Source: Halobellus limi (GTDB taxonomy: Archaea > Halobacteriota > Halobacteria > Halobacteriales > Haloferacaceae). Taken from it: 64,000 nucleotides of DNA. Within the stretch, counting starts at the first letter, position 1, and each line of letters starts with the position of its first letter. The stretch covers positions 1,178,001 through 1,242,000 of the forward strand of contig NZ_CP031311.1 in assembly GCF_004799685.1 (NCBI RefSeq), in the 5' to 3' direction. The notes under the pieces were generated by a model. That model saw only the letters and a program-made list of their open reading frames with translations. It ran no database searches and was not told where the DNA came from. This document shows, in pieces, positions 22,454 to 29,250 of the stretch. Position numbers and translations under genes: made by a program.

Positions 22454-22757
22454 TCAACGGTCGTTCTCCGGCTGCTTCCGATACTCCTCGACGTCGACGA
22501 CTTCTCTCCCCCAGTGTCTCGATCGCCTCGTCGGTGAGTCCGTACAGCGTGTAGACGGCCTCGTCGATCAGTTCGTCGTCCAGTTCGTCGGCCCGTTCGA
22601 TCTTCTCGTCCAGTTCCTCGGCGCGCGCTTTCGCGTCGACGTATCGCTCCAGCCCGTCGGCGACATCGTCGGGATCGGGGAGTCGTTCGTCTATGTAGTG
22701 GTCGGAAAAGAGGTTCGAGTTGACGTAGGGGCGGTCAGCAAGCGTCGCCGGACTCAT
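22454..22757 (-). pseudogene. Remnant of an Eco57I-type restriction-modification gene
   Basis: The frame begins MSPATLADRPYVNSNLFSDH, like the N-terminus of large haloarchaeal Eco57I-type methylase/restriction proteins. It then jumps after about 35 residues to sequence like their C-terminus (DELIDEAVYTLYGLTDEAIE). A further frameshift near 22505 is needed to reach the natural ending VDVEEYRKQPENDR and stop at 22454. The roughly 1,000-residue catalytic core is missing. It is therefore an internal-deletion remnant. The identification rests on recall of the family's end sequences. Confidence 0.6.
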
Positions 22758-22903
22758 TTCGGATATGCAGACCTCCCGGGACCATTACAGATAGGTGGCG
22801 CCAATCGATCCTCGGCCTCTCGGGTGACCTCCGTCTCGAACGCAGAGAAATCACCAAGGGATCTATCACCTAGATTTTTGCAGATCGGCTATCGATTTGG
22901 GCT

Positions 22904-23266
22904 ATGTCAGAGATCGTCGAGGCCACCCAGAACTTCGAGCCGGCCACGCCGCGGCTCGTCGCCGAGTTACGGACCCTCGATTTCGAGATCGAGTACATTC
23001 GAGACGACGTGGAGATCCGCTACACGGACGAGGAACTCGACGAAGCATACAAACGAATTATGGGGAACCTCGTCGCCAGTGACGAATTCAAATCGGTCAT
23101 CGGCGAGCGGGATTGCAGGGCTCAAACCCTGTTTTTCGACAACGTCCTGGTCTTCCTCTTCCCGTCCGAACGCTATCGAGCCGTCTTCGCTTCTTTTGAT
23201 TACGACGAGGGCTTTCCGGTGAACGAGTTCGTCCAACACGTTACGGAGATCGCTTCGACCGAGTAA
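22904..23266 (+). CDS. Haloarchaeal conserved hypothetical protein, 120 aa
   Basis: MSEIVEATQNFEPATPRLVA opens a soluble alpha/beta protein with charged helices (DDVEIRYTDEELDEAYKRIM). A hydrophobic strand segment, DNVLVFLFPSERYRAVFASF, follows. There is one Cys and no obvious catalytic motif. The ATG follows an AT-rich segment (CTAGATTTTTGC near 22870-22882) that could serve as a promoter. It stands among HalOD1 genes, a setting common for small haloarchaeal signalling proteins. I do not recognise a function. Confidence 0.7.
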   Translation: MSEIVEATQNFEPATPRLVAELRTLDFEIEYIRDDVEIRYTDEELDEAYKRIMGNLVASDEFKSVIGERDCRAQTLFFDNVLVFLFPSERYRAVFASFDYDEGFPVNEFVQHVTEIASTE

Positions 23267-23272
23267 ATCACT

Positions 23273-23300
23273 CTCGGGGCTCGACCGAGGCGGTTTACCG
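23273..23300. repeat. Degraded copy of the 12429 hairpin motif
   Basis: CTCGGGGCTCGACCGAGGCG followed by GTTTACCG resembles the hairpin plus CGGTTCACCG at 12431-12462, with a 4-base deletion in one arm. It directly follows the stop codon of the gene at 22904-23266, as the first copy follows the stress-protein gene. Confidence 0.45.
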
Positions 23301-23311
23301 GTCGTTGATCG

Positions 23312-23572
23312 CTAATCTCGTAATTCCGGCCGAGTGCCACCGTCGGGAGTGAGTGTGACCGCTCCCGTTTCGTCGACCGTTATCTCGTGATCCGAATATT
23401 CGAATCGCACTACACAGGTCATTTCTGAGTCCGCTGACTGTGACTCTATGAGTCGGTTAATCGCATCGGGATCGATCGTCTCGTACAGCGGAGGAAGGGC
23501 GGTGGGATCTGTGCCTTCCGCTTCTGCTACAGTGTTCACGATGCGTTCTAAAATATGGTTCATATAGAACAT
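23312..23572 (-). CDS. HalOD1 output-domain protein, 86 aa
   Basis: The protein is a single HalOD1 domain: RIVNTVAEAEGTDPTALPPL with the conserved LPPLYETIDPDAINRL helix pair, then a beta section VRFEYSDHEITVDETGAVTL. HalOD1 is a haloarchaeal output domain found alone or behind receivers; its target is unknown. An in-frame ATG three codons in is an equal start. The upstream region is very AT-rich (23573-23610) and likely carries the promoter. It is the first of four HalOD1 genes within 3.5 kb. Confidence 0.85.
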   Translation of the reverse strand: MFYMNHILERIVNTVAEAEGTDPTALPPLYETIDPDAINRLIESQSADSEMTCVVRFEYSDHEITVDETGAVTLTPDGGTRPELRD

Positions 23573-23668
23573 ATCGTTATTATACTATAATTAAATTACC
23601 GGATAGTTCAGCAGTTAACCGAACAGCCACCCTTACTCGATACGTCATTTGGACTGAGTGGTTCGCTC

Positions 23669-23900
23669 GATTTCACGTGTATTTCGATCACTCAGCCGAG
23701 AGAGCGAGCGGTTCGCCGAGGGCGCTTTTTGATCCACCCTGAGACGCTCCGCATCTCACGAGCCTCGCTTCGCTTCGCTCAGCAAGACAGCTTTTCGTAA
23801 CGAGGGCGAGACGGCTCTGCGGTCTCGCTTCCCACGGGCGATTCACGGATCGTCCGCGGGGAGTGGTGCGCGAAGCCGCACCCGAGTCAGCGAAAAGTGG
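23669..23900. repeat. Long direct repeat, copy 1
   Basis: Matching blocks with copy 2 (26896-27210) include GATTTCACGTGTATTTCGAT at the left, TTTTGATCCACC and ACGCTCCGCATCTCACG in the middle, and CACCCGAGTCAGC then AAAAGTGG at the right end. The right end touches the stop codon of the HalOD1 gene ending at 23901. No coding sequence is seen inside. It fills most of the 328-base gap. Confidence 0.8.
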
Positions 23901-24146
23901 CTACGCCGATCGCTCGGAGCGATGAAAGTCCCCGTCGACGACCACCCGCGAGTCGTGGCTGATCGTGACGTAGTGGGTCCCGTAGCGAAACGTGAACCGC
24001 CACTCGGTGTCGTTCTCTACCCCGTCCAGCCTGTACAACACTTCGGGGTCTATGTACTCGTGCAGCGGCTCGACCGCCGACGGCTCGACCCCGTCGGCGG
24101 CGGCCACCGCCTTGACGACCTCGGTGAGGAGGTCAGTTCGAGTCAT
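23901..24146 (-). CDS. HalOD1 output-domain protein, 81 aa
   Basis: MTRTDLLTEVVKAVAAADGV leads into the HalOD1 helices EPSAVEPLHEYIDPEVLYRL and the strand region WRFTFRYGTHYVTISHDSRV. The start at 24146 overlaps the end of the upstream DUF7344 gene by 14 bases, so the two are translationally coupled and probably cotranscribed. A start 8 codons earlier (24170) is possible. Pairing of DUF7344 and HalOD1 suggests one regulatory unit. Confidence 0.85.
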   Translation of the reverse strand: MTRTDLLTEVVKAVAAADGVEPSAVEPLHEYIDPEVLYRLDGVENDTEWRFTFRYGTHYVTISHDSRVVVDGDFHRSERSA

Positions 24147-24525
24147 TCGTCGCACCTCCGATGACGACACACTCCTCGCGTAATCGTTCCGGGTACTTCT
24201 CGTCCGCCTCGATCATCCTGCTCACGACGAATCCCGGCTCCTCGAAGTGCGGGCCGCGTCTGACGCGGAACGGGTCACTCTCCCAGCGGACGTACCCCGC
24301 GTCGGCGAGCTTGGGGAGGTGGTGATGTCGAAGTTCTATGCGCGGCTCTTGGGAATCCATCGGTTGCATCGGTGAGTCCGCGGCGTCGGGCAACGAAAGC
24401 CACTGGTCTTCGGGTGCCTTCAGTAGCGAAAAGATGATCGTCCGCCGTGGCTGGGACGCCAGCGCTTCGTACAACTGGTCCCATCTCTCAGTGGTCTTTC
24501 CACTCCCGGCGGTGTCGGTGGCCAT
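24133..24525 (-). CDS. DUF7344-type winged-helix regulator, 130 aa
   Basis: The region WDQLYEALASQPRRTIIFSL starts a winged helix-turn-helix domain, followed by IELRHHHLPKLADAGYVRWE and the wing. It ends with a short tail ECVVIGGATNDSN. The family is haloarchaeal and proposed to be transcriptional. The upstream TATA-like AATAAATCG near 24550 fits a promoter. It overlaps the HalOD1 gene downstream. Confidence in the fold is good, but its targets are unknown. Confidence 0.8.
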   Translation of the reverse strand: MATDTAGSGKTTERWDQLYEALASQPRRTIIFSLLKAPEDQWLSLPDAADSPMQPMDSQEPRIELRHHHLPKLADAGYVRWESDPFRVRRGPHFEEPGFVVSRMIEADEKYPERLREECVVIGGATNDSN

Positions 24526-24902
24526 AGTGATGCGTACGGTCTTGAAGAATAAATCGTTATGTCCCGATCACGTCGAATCGATTTTAAATCTATGCGACCC
24601 CGGAGTACGCCGGATCATCCCGTGTAGATTCCTCCCTGCGGGTGCCGTCGCCGACGACCGTCGTCCGCCCGCGATTCGGCCAGCGAAGACCACGGGCCGG
24701 TCCGTGAGAATCGGACTCACCGCGCTCGCGACATAGCCGGCGGACGTCTCAATTCATCTCCCCCGCAATCGCTGTCGCACTCTCCAGACGGAGGGTGACC
24801 GCCGTTCCACTCTCGGCGACCTCCAGATCTGTCTCGCCGTTCACGTCGGATCAATGACTCGTCTACTCGTACTCTGCGTGGCTGCTGGCCCGAAAGGGGC
24901 GG
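24526..24902. other. Gap with a possible decayed signalling-gene tail
   Basis: On the minus strand, 24750-24850 reads as NGETDLEVAESGTAVTLRLE and then ATAIAGEMN before a stop, somewhat like the last strand of haloarchaeal sensor kinases. No start or ATPase motifs accompany it. The remainder has no gene that I can support. Confidence 0.25.
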
Positions 24903-25370
24903 TCAGTACTTGTACAGCGAGACGACGAACGGGAGCCGGTCGTACATCCAGACGGCCACCGGAAGTCCGACGATGCTAATCGAGGCGAGCCACGCGATCG
25001 ACATCCAGACCCCGCTGAACCACCAGCCGACCAGGAGGAAGTACACCCCGCGAACGACGAGTGAGTACTGCTCGCTCGTCGACTCGGTGACGGTCACGTC
25101 GCCGGCCTCCGTTCGCGTGATCGTCATCGTGATCTTCTGATCTTTCAGCGAGACGATCTTCGGCACCCTGTTGATCATCTTGATCCCGAGCGGCATCCCG
25201 ATGATCGTGAGGTTGAGGAACCACGCGACGCTCAGCCAGATCCCGCTCGCCCACCACCCAATCAAAAGGAAGTACGCTGCGCGGACCACGATCGAGGGCG
25301 TCGCGTCACGCTGCTCGACGGTGACATCCACGCCGGCGTCGGCCCGATTCTCTGTCGGTGAGTCGCTCAT
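24903..25370 (-). CDS. YccF-domain inner membrane protein, 155 aa
   Basis: Two YccF-type units are present. Each has a paired hydrophobic helix with the motif LLIGWWASGIWLSVAW or LLVGWWFSGVWMSIAW, followed by GMPLGIKMINRVPKIVSL or GLPVAVWMYDRLPFVVSL. The first 25 residues are acidic and disordered. The function of YccF proteins is unknown. The gene is alone on the minus strand between the DUF7344-HalOD1 pair and another HalOD1 gene. The length matches two-unit family members. Confidence 0.9.
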   Translation of the reverse strand: MSDSPTENRADAGVDVTVEQRDATPSIVVRAAYFLLIGWWASGIWLSVAWFLNLTIIGMPLGIKMINRVPKIVSLKDQKITMTITRTEAGDVTVTESTSEQYSLVVRGVYFLLVGWWFSGVWMSIAWLASISIVGLPVAVWMYDRLPFVVSLYKY

Positions 25371-25475
25371 AGGTCCGACTACGCCGGGAATGCGCTTAAC
25401 ACCGCGGACGACCGGACTCCTGTCTCTCGGGGACCGCGTCTGTGTGACTTCCCGTTCAGTACAGCGCCTCGCGGC

Positions 25476-25706
25476 TCACCTGTCGTTGATCGCCACCTGA
25501 CCGTCCGCCACCACTACCTCGTAACCCAAGTACCGAAACGAGATACGCGTGCCTTCCGTCTGCGCGACTTGCTCGACCGCTTCGACGTCGATCGTCCGAC
25601 CGAGCGGCGGAAGATCAGCCACATCGTCGCCTTCTAACCGTGCGATTTTCCGCAAGATCTCGACCGCGAGTGACGTTGACTCGCCGCTACTCCAGGACGC
25701 TTCCAT
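25476..25706 (-). CDS. HalOD1 output-domain protein, 76 aa
   Basis: The sequence SLAVEILRKIARLEGDDVAD followed by LPPLGRTIDVEAVEQV is the HalOD1 helix signature, then ISFRYLGYEVVVADGQVAIN forms the strand part. It is a complete single-domain protein. The upstream region to 25740 is AT-rich. It stands 105 bases upstream of the YccF gene on the same strand, so cotranscription is possible. Confidence 0.85.
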   Translation of the reverse strand: MEASWSSGESTSLAVEILRKIARLEGDDVADLPPLGRTIDVEAVEQVAQTEGTRISFRYLGYEVVVADGQVAINDR

Positions 25707-25983
25707 AGGCTATTGCTGACATATCCGTTGATAATATTGTGTAAACTTCTGTTGACCTATTCGAAGTTTACGATGCCACAGACTCGAAGTAGTCCCACGA
25801 TGCGAGTGCCATAGAACCCTCACCGTGGTAGTCGTTTCACGATTCCCCCGGCCGACTCGGCCTGTAGAGCGTCCGTGCTACTTGATCCGGGTATAGAATC
25901 CTCCGAATGGGGCATACGGAATAACTCTCTGCGGTCTGTGCTGAGCGGTACATTTATTTGTTTTATTGTTGACTTTTTCAGAC

Positions 25984-26472
25984 ATGAGCTACGACAACCT
26001 TCTGATCCCCACCGACGGGAGCGAACAGGCCGCCAACGCGGTAGAAGAAGGCATCAAACTCGCAAATGAAGTCGACGCCACCGTCCACATTCTTCACGTA
26101 GTGGATGCGTTTGAGGCAAAAATACTCCCGATAACCGGAGAGGAAGAAGCGAAGCGAGAGGAATACGTCGAGTACGGCGAGCAGATCACGACCGAGGCCG
26201 CACAGGTAGCAAAAGATGCTGGCCTCGAAGTCGAGACGGCAGTCGTCGTCGGCATCGCTCACAAGGAGATCCAGGCCTACGTCGAGGAGAATGAGATCGA
26301 TCTCGTTGTGATCGGCTCTCGTGGACTCGGTGGCGTCGAAGAGATGCTGCTTGGCAGTACCGCCGACAAAGTCATTCGGCTCGTAAATAAGCCAGTGACC
26401 GTCGTGTATCAACAACCCGCCGAGGAAGTCCGATGGATGCTGCCCTCTGCTGAGGACACGATTCATCGGTAG
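25984..26472 (+). CDS. Single-domain universal stress protein, 162 aa
   Basis: MSYDNLLIPTDGSEQAANAV begins the UspA fold. The nucleotide-binding loop GSRGLGGVEEMLLGSTADKV is intact, with the Gly/Ser residues of the ATP-binding type. A C-terminal tail of about 17 residues extends past the domain. The ATG at 25984 is preferred over the upstream 25966 because it starts the first strand, and a TATA-like CATTTATTTG (25950-25959) lies just upstream. It probably acts in general stress survival. Confidence 0.88.
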   Translation: MSYDNLLIPTDGSEQAANAVEEGIKLANEVDATVHILHVVDAFEAKILPITGEEEAKREEYVEYGEQITTEAAQVAKDAGLEVETAVVVGIAHKEIQAYVEENEIDLVVIGSRGLGGVEEMLLGSTADKVIRLVNKPVTVVYQQPAEEVRWMLPSAEDTIHR

Positions 26473-26499
26473 GCGATCGTTAAACGCTACTGAGCGAAT

Positions 26500-26781
26500 T
26501 TATTCACGTGAGTAGATCGTGATAGCCTCGGGAGTGATACGCAATGGGTAGCCCCATACTGTCGTTCGCACTTCCAACTGTGGGTTGTCCCAGTTTAACT
26601 GCGCAAGGGCAAATGGGTCAACGAACTCCATCATCGGTACCCCTTGGTCCTCCAAGTCTGCACCGGCTACCTCAAATGCCGTGAGTAAGTCATCTTCAAA
26701 CGAGGTATCATCCTGTCGTTCGTAAATGACTAGTTCGCTTTCCTCAGAGAATTCAATAGAATCAGACGGTTCGGACGACAT
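26500..26781 (-). CDS. HalOD1-like protein, divergent, 93 aa
   Basis: The first 35 residues are acidic. The remainder, LTAFEVAGADLEDQGVPMME then FVDPFALAQLNWDN and a beta tail GYPLRITPEAITIYS, follows HalOD1 spacing. The usual LPPL segment is replaced by VPMMEFVDP. The AT content is higher than average. It converges on the stress-protein gene with a 27-base gap. HalOD1 assignment is likely but weaker than for the other three. Confidence 0.7.
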   Translation of the reverse strand: MSSEPSDSIEFSEESELVIYERQDDTSFEDDLLTAFEVAGADLEDQGVPMMEFVDPFALAQLNWDNPQLEVRTTVWGYPLRITPEAITIYSRE

Positions 26782-26895
26782 TATGAGAAATCTCTATCGT
26801 ATATTTCTTGACATCCGACCAATGTAATTGTTACGGCATACTGTCGTGAACGCCCGAATCTATTGATCCTCTGGGCTGGGTGATTCGCTACCTTT

Positions 26896-27210
26896 GATTT
26901 CACGTGTATTTCGATCGCTCAGCCGAGAGAACGATCGAGCGGTTCGCCGACGGAGCCGCCGGAGTTCCCGTGAGCGACTGAAAGAAGCGATTAGGAGCAC
27001 GGAAGAGCGGAGTTCTTCCGGAAGCGGCGGAGTCGGACGCTTTTGATCCACCGTGAGACGCTCCGCATCTCACGGGCCTCGCTTCGCTCAGCAAGACAGC
27101 TTTTCGCAACGAGGGCGAGACGGCGCTGCCGTCTCGCTTCCCACGGGCGACCTGTGAGTCGCCCGTGGAGAGTGGCGCGCCGGAGACGCACCCGAGTCAG
27201 CAAAAAGTGG
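26896..27210. repeat. Long direct repeat, copy 2
   Basis: This copy shares end blocks and internal blocks with copy 1 at 23669-23900 in the same orientation, but has an extra segment of about 80 bases near 26945-27030. Its right end, CACCCGAGTCAGC then AAAAAGTGG, lies three bases from the stop of the next minus-strand gene. It fills most of the 432-base gap. The left 110 bases of the gap (26782-26895) show nothing else. Confidence 0.8.
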
Positions 27211-27213
27211 GTT

Positions 27214-27486
27214 CTATGGATCGATATGGTGTACCGCTTCAGGAGAGAGGAGCCGACCGGTCGGTAACGCGACCCAACTGTTTGGAAGAATACGAACCTT
27301 CCCTTGGTGGAGAATCTGCTCCTGTTCAAAATCGCCGTACACGGTCGCACCTTCGTACTCGATTATCGAGCCATCCACAACCTCGTCTGCGATTTCATCC
27401 CATACTGACGTGGTGGAAATGACCATAGTCGACGAACAGCTTTCACAGTATATTTCGGTTTCCCAACGGCGACCCGCAACTCGCAT
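27214..27486 (-). CDS. Small hypothetical protein with CxxC motif, 90 aa
   Basis: MRVAGRRWETEIYCESCSST carries one CxxC pair near residues 14-17. It is followed by VWDEIADEVVDGSIIEYEGA and a strand-rich tail RILPNSWVALPTGRLLSPEA. One pair alone cannot make a full zinc ribbon unless it dimerises. No family is recognised. Its stop touches repeat copy 2. It may be a degraded relative of HalOD1-type proteins, since the tail has similar strand spacing, but this is speculative. Confidence 0.5.
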   Translation of the reverse strand: MRVAGRRWETEIYCESCSSTMVISTTSVWDEIADEVVDGSIIEYEGATVYGDFEQEQILHQGKVRILPNSWVALPTGRLLSPEAVHHIDP

Positions 27487-27544
27487 GTATAGTCATCACT
27501 GAATCATTCGTCGGACGTAATACCGCGCCGTCACGCGGTCCACG

Positions 27545-27754
27545 TCAATCGCGGTTGCTCCTCAGCAGAAGTGCGACCCCTGTAACCGATATCGATATTC
27601 CAAGGAGGATCAGACCGAGGTATGCGATCGCTATCGACCCGATATCCTGAATCGCCGAATGGTACTGGTTGGTCGTATGCAAGAACAGTAACAGGGTGGC
27701 TACGATACTGATGAGGAGTCCCACTGCGTTCGCCCACAGTCCTACCTTCGCCAT
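27545..27754 (-). CDS. Small two-helix membrane protein, 69 aa
   Basis: MAKVGLWANAVGLLISIVAT begins a protein with two hydrophobic helices separated by a polar loop (FLHTTNQYHSAIQDIG). It ends ISVTGVALLLRSNRD. The internal ATG at 27754 is preferred over 27799 because the extra 15 residues are charged and unlike a membrane start. It lies between the CxxC protein and the kinase. The function is unknown. Confidence 0.55.
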   Translation of the reverse strand: MAKVGLWANAVGLLISIVATLLLFLHTTNQYHSAIQDIGSIAIAYLGLILLGISISVTGVALLLRSNRD

Positions 27755-27858
27755 ACTGTCACCTCGTGTTCTCCAGTCTACGGCGAGAATATGTGACAAG
27801 TTTTACGCTTTTGTCTCCTGTCCGCACGCCGCGCGGAACCCCAGCAGTCCTGCGAACG

Positions 27859-29250
27859 CTACGAAAGGTCGATCGTGACGACGTTCCCGCGCTTTTCGCC
27901 CCGATCGAAGTGCAGCGATCCACCGGACTGCCGCACGGCGTGGTAGACGAACCAGAGACCGAATCCCGCGGAGTGGTACGTCGAATCCAGTAGCGAATCC
28001 TCCGAGAACGATCGGTACTCCATCTCCGGGATGGGCGGGCCGTCGTCGCTGACTCGGATCACCACTCTCGGATCGGTGTGCTCGACGTCGATTTCGATCT
28101 GCGGCTCCCGTCTCTCGTTGTGCTCGATCGCGTTCTCGACTAACTCCCGGAGCGCGAGTTTGAGTGTGTGAACCCCCGAGACGCCCGCCCGCTCGGGGAG
28201 GTCGGTCGTGATCGTGGCCGCAGGATACGACTCGCCGCACTCTCGGGCGATAGCTTCGAGGGCCGCCACCACGTCGATGGATTCCGTCGGTTGCGGTGTC
28301 GTCAGCTGATCGATGATGAGGTGGTGGTTATCGAAGATGGATAGCAGCCGTTCGGCGGCCGCGTCGATACGCTCGGCCGCAGACTGACCTTGCGCCGAAC
28401 TGGCGTCGGAGACCAGTTCGACCGATCCCTGAATGATGTTGATCTGATTCCGGAGGTTGTGTTGCAGGAGGTAATCAACCGCGCGGAGGTGTTGCTCGCG
28501 GGCCTTCCGCTCGGAGATATCGCGCCCGATTCCGGCCAGTCCGATCACGTCCTCGCCGTCGACGAGTCGTCGCTTGCGGAACTCGAACGGGATCTCCCTC
28601 CCCTGTTTGGTGACGACTGTCGCTTCCACGGTGTCAGCGCCCTCAGCGAACGCCGTCGCGATCGACTCGGAGATCCGCTCGGTATGCGACTCCACGAAGA
28701 AGTCCTCGATGTCCATCGCTCGAACCTCCTCGGCGTCGTACCCAGAGACGTCGAGCAGCGAGTCGTTCCATCGATCCAGCTCTCCACCGGGTGTGATGAC
28801 GTAGAAGACGTCCGGAAGGGCATTCAGCGCGTTCTGTACGAACTGCCGCTCCGTTTCGAGTTCCTCGTGAGCACGCTCCAGTTCCGTGACGTCGATGACC
28901 ACCGCCTGCCCGATGTCTCTGCCCCGGAATCGGCCAGGGGCAGTGGATACCCGAATACTCCGGATCTCACCGTCAGCACGCCGCAACTGCATCGGCGTCG
29001 GCCCCGTCGCCGTCTTCGACTTGACGACGTCGACGAGTTCTTGCTCTGCGGTGTACTGATCCTCCGCGACGATAAAGTCGAATATGGATCGACCGATCAG
29101 ATCCTCCCTGGAATCGAGTCCCAAGAGATCGAGAACTGCGTCGTTTCCCCAGATGATCTCTCCGGATTCGTCAAAGAGGTTGATCGGGGCGGGCGACACG
29201 CTGATCAACTGCTGATAGTTTCCCGGCTCCGCGTTCTCTTCGTCGGCCAT
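27859..29250 (-). CDS. PAS-PAS sensor histidine kinase, 463 aa
   Basis: Two PAS domains come first: about residues 10-125, with LFDESGEIIWGNDAVLDLLG, and 135-250, with VITPGGELDRWNDSLLDVSG. The phosphoacceptor region is about 257-320 with LLQHNLRNQINIIQG, where His is the likely phosphorylation site. The ATPase follows: LRELVENAIEHNE is the N box, VRVSDDGPPIP-type sequence the G1 box, and SAGFGLWFVYHAVRQSGGSL the G2 region. No membrane helix is present, so it senses a cytoplasmic signal. The partner is unknown; the HalOD1 cluster upstream is a candidate by location. Confidence 0.92.
   Translation of the reverse strand: MADEENAEPGNYQQLISVSPAPINLFDESGEIIWGNDAVLDLLGLDSREDLIGRSIFDFIVAEDQYTAEQELVDVVKSKTATGPTPMQLRRADGEIRSIRVSTAPGRFRGRDIGQAVVIDVTELERAHEELETERQFVQNALNALPDVFYVITPGGELDRWNDSLLDVSGYDAEEVRAMDIEDFFVESHTERISESIATAFAEGADTVEATVVTKQGREIPFEFRKRRLVDGEDVIGLAGIGRDISERKAREQHLRAVDYLLQHNLRNQINIIQGSVELVSDASSAQGQSAAERIDAAAERLLSIFDNHHLIIDQLTTPQPTESIDVVAALEAIARECGESYPAATITTDLPERAGVSGVHTLKLALRELVENAIEHNERREPQIEIDVEHTDPRVVIRVSDDGPPIPEMEYRSFSEDSLLDSTYHSAGFGLWFVYHAVRQSGGSLHFDRGEKRGNVVTIDLS

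Follow-up and report, generated by a model that had tools for sequence, protein, structure and literature searches.

Two direct repeats behind stop codons

The window analysed here is a stretch of 64,000 nucleotides (nt) of the Halobellus limi genome (contig NZ_CP031311.1, positions 1,178,001 to 1,242,000), and the positions given below are those of the window. It contains two similar intergenic sequences, copy 1 (23669-23900) and copy 2 (26896-27210), on either side of a segment with HalOD1 and YccF-like genes. Both belong to a haloarchaeal family of palindromes located at gene ends, of which they are composite and partly worn copies. The initial annotation had described a pair of diverged direct repeats, each ending within a few bases of a minus-strand stop codon, and both statements hold. 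Four blocks match in direct orientation: 23669-23710 with 26896-26937 (93%), 23727-23774 with 27041-27088 (96%), 23767-23871 with 27076-27180 (the main block, 86%) and 23871-23900 with 27181-27210 (90%). By eye, the similar ends extend slightly further, to approximately 23651 and 26873. The spacing between the copies is 3.2 kb. Read on the minus strand, copy 1 immediately follows the TAG of a HalOD1 gene (23901-24170), and copy 2 starts 2 nt past the TAG of a gene for a 90-amino-acid protein (27214-27486). As a whole-genome query, copy 1 retrieved copy 2 at an E value of 9.4e-52, with 86% identity over about 170 nt. The pair is real, but it does not stand alone: the 13 match rows of copy 1 in its own genome comprise the query itself, two rows for copy 2 and ten further locations. 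The copy 2 query gave 57 rows at E values up to 10, mostly short or weak.

Placed side by side, the copies form a mosaic of four modules, A to D, in varying combinations. Module A consists of hairpins enclosed by a frame, CCAC(C)TTTTTG ... CAAAAAGCTGGA; module B is a palindromic unit, and modules C and D are further palindromic repeats. A palindromic unit of about 85-90 nt is present in copy 2 and absent from copy 1. The arms are still T5/A4 in copy 2, and those of copy 1 have worn down to T4/A4. The features are as follows.

23901..24170, minus strand: HalOD1-domain gene ending at copy 1 (Pfam PF18545, E 3.4e-15)
23788..23900, minus strand: copy 1 module A, frame with 5′ arm CCACTTTT at 23893-23900 and 3′ arm GAAAAGCTG (boundaries by eye); inner palindrome enlarged by a two-hairpin unit; worn, T4/A4 arms
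23735..23787, minus strand: copy 1 module B, palindromic unit between the CTG and GATC of the frame (boundaries by eye)
23725..23734, minus strand: 3′ end of the copy 1 frame, GATCAAAAAG (by eye)
23651..23710, minus strand: copy 1 module D, hairpin repeat, found elsewhere in the genome without the other modules (C1:1490781, C3:188289)
27214..27486, minus strand: 90-amino-acid gene ending at copy 2, no Pfam match; its ortholog in the related genome G011 lacks the element
27097..27211, minus strand: copy 2 module A, frame with 5′ arm CCCACTTTTT, T5 at 27202-27206 (boundaries by eye); interior a two-hairpin unit, arms T5/A4
27049..27096, minus strand: copy 2 module B (boundaries by eye)
27040..27048, minus strand: 3′ end of the copy 2 frame, GATCAAAAG (by eye)
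26947..27039, minus strand: copy 2 module C, palindromic unit of which copy 1 lacks the greater part; whole-genome matches at, for example, C1:733030, 1748078 and 2607778
26873..26946, minus strand: copy 2 module D (boundaries by eye)

Compared with shuffled versions, RNA folding is much better for copy 2 (z -4.83, 0 of 100) and only modestly better for copy 1 (z -1.84, 6 of 200). A search of 22500-28500 with Rfam gave four weak matches, none of them on the repeats.

Structure and extent of the family

In what follows, G000 is the H. limi genome, other G-numbers denote genomes of relatives and L-numbers denote loci; a limited number of candidates was scored per genome in the genome searches. 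The core of the family is a frame, CCACCTTTTT ... AAAAA-n-CTGGA-nnn-AAAAA, which is closed over an inner palindrome and whose arms are able to pair. The word CCACCTTTTTG occurs nine times in the H. limi genome, and its reversed control does not occur. The frame with a closing A5 was found 25 times in 12 of 60 genomes, against none for the control. A structure alignment was made from 21 of these 25 frames, leaving out L099, L111, L112 and L118 (G027, G041). The inner stem covaries in it: 23 cells are changed on both sides, compared with 7.0 in shuffles, and the covariation score is 0.183, compared with 0.044, neither value being reached in 500 shuffles. In most of the 21 frames the ends pair as CCA/TGG and thus form terminal inverted repeats; elsewhere, as judged by eye, CTA/TAG replaces CCA/TGG, a change in both halves of the outer stem. 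The idea of a K-turn in the inner loop was given up on visual inspection.

A covariance model matched in 12 of the 17 genomes of the genus, with 40 matches in the H. limi genome, where palindromic sites may count on both strands. No match was obtained in G001, G009, G010, G012 and G016. The gene ends of these element-free members (e.g. L206-L210) are AT-richer, the opposite of the carriers. No Rfam model reached its gathering score in L161, L061 or L068. An exact 20-mer of one 3′ arm is present in 12 of 242 genomes of the class, belonging to 5 of 73 genera, one of which is assigned to another family; the control gave none.

Placement of the frame

A fixed pattern gave 132 frames, of which 14 were dropped by a fold-energy threshold and 118, from 15 genomes, were kept. 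Genes in the fetched loci were called by codon score after training on the open reading frames of the window; this caller misses some AT-rich genes, among them the window genes 26500-26781 and 27214-27486. The frames are concentrated behind stop codons: 79 of the 118 start 0-10 nt after a stop on the same strand, a count that includes ortholog copies, which are not independent. This interval makes up 2.4% of intergenic strand-positions (11,298 of 465,802). When loci obtained through chosen orthologs were excluded, 62 of 100 frames started within 12 nt after a same-strand stop, and another 22 were located 30-47 nt upstream of a divergent start. The corresponding numbers for the H. limi genome alone are 16 and 3 of 23. 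The frames at divergent starts end behind apparent TATA regions (by eye). In these frames, about one fifth of the total, the CCACC end faces the promoter, so that T-tracts on the opposite strand would precede it.

Among 13 further places selected by likeness to copy 1, six lie 1-4 nt and one 19 nt after a stop, three precede a divergent start by 32-41 nt and two by 48 and 54 nt, and one is truncated at a contig end. The seven loci found outside the genus with the 20-mer include three at 1-4 nt and one at 233 nt after a stop and three at 32-46 nt before a divergent start. The random positions that would have spoken against a role linked to gene ends were not observed; most copies lie just behind a stop. 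Protein-coding genes are not the only ones followed by the element. ARAGORN found a tRNA-Gly gene at it in five of the seven loci submitted, which correspond to four distinct places since L123 and L148 are the same; none was found in L182 and L067. Six of six submitted proteins encoded next to the element could be named: the branched-chain transaminase IlvE, RadA, CDP-2,3-bis-(O-geranylgeranyl)-sn-glycerol synthase (NF003114), release factor aRF1, threonyl-tRNA synthetase and aspartate-semialdehyde dehydrogenase (asd).

All 19 frame-bearing gene ends examined in the H. limi genome carry a T5 tract 6-14 nt after the stop, although the pattern itself asks for T4-T6. They were compared with 71 gene ends without a frame; the sample consists mostly of loci chosen as element-bearing, and the split of 19 against 71 is not a genome rate.

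Turnover of the interior and discrete insertions

The interior shows turnover at a place where the frame is retained. The ilvE, radA and NF003114 genes were fetched in all 17 genomes of the genus. By hand count, the 36 ends in the twelve carrier species comprise 24 intact, six worn and six absent frames, and the five other species have no frame at any of the 14 ends that could be resolved among 15. In most element-bearing species the frame is kept at its place behind the stop of these genes, and the interiors differ. Across 18 ortholog groups with 148 cross-species pairs, the interior is at least 80% alike in 32 pairs; the last 80 residues of the encoded proteins average 88% identity in the same pairs. 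Between the H. limi genome and the near genome G011, the interior is kept at five of eight shared sites. Single linkage, a coarse typing, sorted the 118 interiors into 15 types, four of which have 34, 33, 28 and 10 members. Interiors from one genome have a mean likeness of 0.672, those of orthologs 0.643 and all other pairs 0.616. Species-wise homogenisation is therefore slight, and a strong form of it (concerted replacement) was dropped since these means differ little.

One case of exchange is clear. The ilvE gene and a gene for a 196-amino-acid protein are convergent. The interior found at ilvE in H. limi sits at the other gene in G011, with 98.9% identity over 89 nt from the stop codon to the A-tract, and it adjoins there the second hairpin that belongs to the 196-amino-acid gene. 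Conversely, the H. limi interior at the 196-amino-acid gene is found at ilvE in G011, with 89% identity over 110 nt and together with the second hairpin. Inversion of the intergenic stretch is ruled out, since the spacer has kept its orientation between the two genomes. The tracts are of unequal length, as would be expected more readily from copying than from a single clean swap.

Discrete units have also been inserted into the frame. At one ortholog the H. limi sequence is 60 nt longer than those of G008 and G011; the extra sequence consists of two hairpins inside the frame, the near flanks are alike, and it represents a clean insertion. By eye, the same two-hairpin unit is recognised in both window copies and in the G008 copies L312 and L322, whose inner type is different. 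In L061 the 60-nt insert is bordered by CTC on both sides, perhaps a 3-nt target duplication or chance. Module B is located between the CTG and GA of the frame in eight of ten places by pattern, the exceptions being a truncated copy and one from G027 (another family) with small differences. Twelve places with module B among the loci picked by likeness show the same CTG/GA point with small differences (by eye). Given this fixed point and the shared 60-nt unit, the window copies are regarded as frames with stacked palindromic additions. The situation is different for the element as a whole: orthologous ends without it were seen, but homology does not resume downstream.

Proposed role and alternative explanations

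Archaeal termination is known mainly as bare U-tracts. On balance, we lean towards the view that the family is a U-tract transcription terminator, probably acting in both directions, and that dispersed copies exchange their interiors. The T5 tract that closely follows the stop would be the archaeal U-tract terminator of the gene. Read on the opposite strand, the arm is TTTTT-nnn-TCCAG-n-TTTTT and may stop transcripts arriving from the other side; the cassette would then act as a two-way terminator or insulator. The interior would spread by non-allelic exchange (gene conversion) between dispersed cassettes, which would be tolerated because the frame survives. The initial annotation had seen in the location after genes a hint of a 3′ RNA or a terminator. 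The location is borne out by 62 of 100 frames behind stops and by the T5 tract in all 19 gene ends; termination at that tract is predicted from sequence. If correct, a palindromic and possibly two-way frame at the stops of core genes would provide a family for testing structured terminators or insulators in haloarchaea, and also a way to study the spread of short palindromes in haloarchaeal cells.

Several observations weigh against this view. On the sense strand the T-tract precedes the hairpin, which is therefore not needed for a terminator of the bacterial type; a hairpin that follows the tract on the sense strand may instead serve the opposite direction. The 71 gene ends without a frame have T5 in seven cases and A5 in one within 80 nt, and T4 and A4 are equally common there, nine and eight within 40 nt. 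The frame is dispensable, as six of the 36 ends in carrier species lack it and six carry a worn one. The likeness of interiors within a genome is barely higher than between genomes, so that species-wise homogenisation is slight. As for the structure, the counts of double-changed pairs (4, with 3.6 in shuffles) and of further pair types (6, with 5.4) in the inner stem are not above the shuffled level, and the covariation score is still 0.117 after a slide of -2 columns. The constancy of the T/A arms in the alignment proves nothing, because the search pattern demanded these arms.

It is possible, and proposed here tentatively, that the interior spreads by itself. Palindromic units would home into the T5/A5 frame of gene-end terminators, or overwrite each other, without a dedicated transposase. 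The interior would then be a selfish sequence, tolerated because the overwritten terminator stays functional, and the genus would keep its terminator at the same base while the hairpin is repeatedly replaced.

The initial annotation had suggested that the two repeats can delete or duplicate the HalOD1/YccF segment between them. The pair, at 86% over about 170 nt, in the same orientation and 3.2 kb apart, would suit such recombination, and the gene content of the region varies between species. The comparison with relatives gave no support. In eight stretches from relatives the genes lying between the repeats are found apart, in other contexts. The HalOD1 ortholog of G008 is alike up to the stop and then diverges, with neither an element nor a merged copy. 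In G011 the ortholog of the 27214 gene is alike up to TAGAA, and the YccF gene follows with no repeat between the two genes. A merged single copy or a duplicated segment was encountered neither in these eight stretches and two junctions, which cover part of the genomes, nor among the matches of 39 relatives (best seven candidates per genome). The second refuting observation named in the initial annotation, the lack of a strain with a merged junction, holds within this comparison, which covers relatives of other species. Nothing links the gene shuffling of the region to recombination between the two repeats. As the pair moreover belongs to a dispersed family, we consider a system for deleting or duplicating the segment very improbable, and intergenic repeats at this locus need not be recombination scars.

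Small non-autonomous mobile repeats, comparable to REPs or to the small mobile repeats (SMRs) of Haloquadratum, would be targeted by an enzyme to sites behind stops, with any terminator effect secondary. The dispersed and partly near-identical copies, the orthologous ends with and without the element, the discrete 60-nt insertion and the fixed position of module B are all compatible with this explanation. On the other hand, matches to Y1_Tnp (PF01797), the domain searched for (other transposase families lie outside this search), are absent from the carriers G000, which has the most element matches, G003, G004, G006 and G013, and number 1-5 in the other seven carriers, against 10, 11, 12, 12 and 17 in five element-free genomes. 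No clean empty site was found for the whole element in the junctions read, and its additional placement behind tRNA genes and promoters would not be explained by one insertion target. We therefore regard mobile repeats as unlikely, and a REP-type origin is disfavoured. Membership in the REPs themselves fails in the H. limi genome, which has no Y1 transposase match. An integron-like attC role was dropped, as the copies are dispersed behind core genes, with no search for an integrase made. Finally, the palindromes might act on mRNA or translation in the manner of REPs near stops in Escherichia coli: exonucleases would be slowed, or ribosomes stalled at the stop, by a hairpin at the 3′ end. The distance of 0-10 nt from stops fits the range of less than 16 nt given for ribosome effects of REPs in the part of PMC12306157 consulted, and the inner stem covaries. 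This role is nevertheless improbable: the same frame lies behind tRNA-Gly genes and upstream of divergent promoters, neither of which involves translation, and the RNA would tend to end at the T5 tract, which is transcribed ahead of the hairpin.

Comparison with known systems

In the DNA-uptake-repeat terminators of Neisseria and Haemophilus, a repeat present throughout the genome reportedly also serves as a hairpin at gene ends, and in this they resemble the family described here. There a fixed uptake word is said to form the stem; in the present family it is the arms that are fixed, and exchange concerns the interior. A literature search by title and opening of the abstract, which reached few subscription journals and is weak evidence, returned no published description of the family.

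A parallel for the T-tract comes from Haloferax volcanii. According to the sections seen of PMC7237163, the T stretch is the main intergenic termination motif in this species, a T5 tract lies shortly downstream of genes, as it does here, and in a reporter 95% of transcripts were terminated by T5C. Those sections place hairpins upstream of the transcript end and mention no repeated frame; in the present family the hairpin follows the tract, which itself forms the 5′ arm of a conserved palindromic frame. REP and BIME sequences with RAYT transposases are likewise dispersed extragenic palindromes that build composite mosaics, and some lie within 15 nt of stops (PMC2817692, PMC3733652 and PMC12306157, as excerpted). 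The present family differs from what these excerpts describe in its fixed arms with an exchangeable interior, in the absence of a Y1 match from the H. limi genome and in the absence of a GTAG or CGTC tag at the frame ends, judged by eye in the 21-frame alignment with no pattern search run. The SMR and PATE sequences of Haloquadratum walsbyi are similar in being short haloarchaeal repeats without a transposase, the SMRs having terminal inverted repeats. In the portion of PMC3119063 used, SMR-A often lies inside IS605-type elements or PATEs; the present family lies at gene ends and is set apart from it by this description.

Further observations

The small genes at 22900-29250 of the window encode three HalOD1 proteins, a YccF-like protein, a universal stress protein and several proteins without a Pfam match. 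Their orthologs occur in differing contexts among relatives, and in the two junctions that were read the homology stops precisely where a gene ends. A search for the frame in named plasmids gave no match. The only named neighbour is a 124-nt sequence with 91% identity on a Halobaculum magnesiiphilum plasmid. An 18-nt word of module B was found in ten stretches of named genomes, nine from unrelated bacteria and one from Halobellus rarus. The nine bacterial matches are close to chance for an 18-mer (about 7.5 expected in 257 Gb), in a collection from which near genomes are possibly missing. In one relative (G005:C2:12074-14127, L281) several matches of the covariance model lie within 2 kb on one strand, partly about 150 nt apart, which may represent a tandem array.

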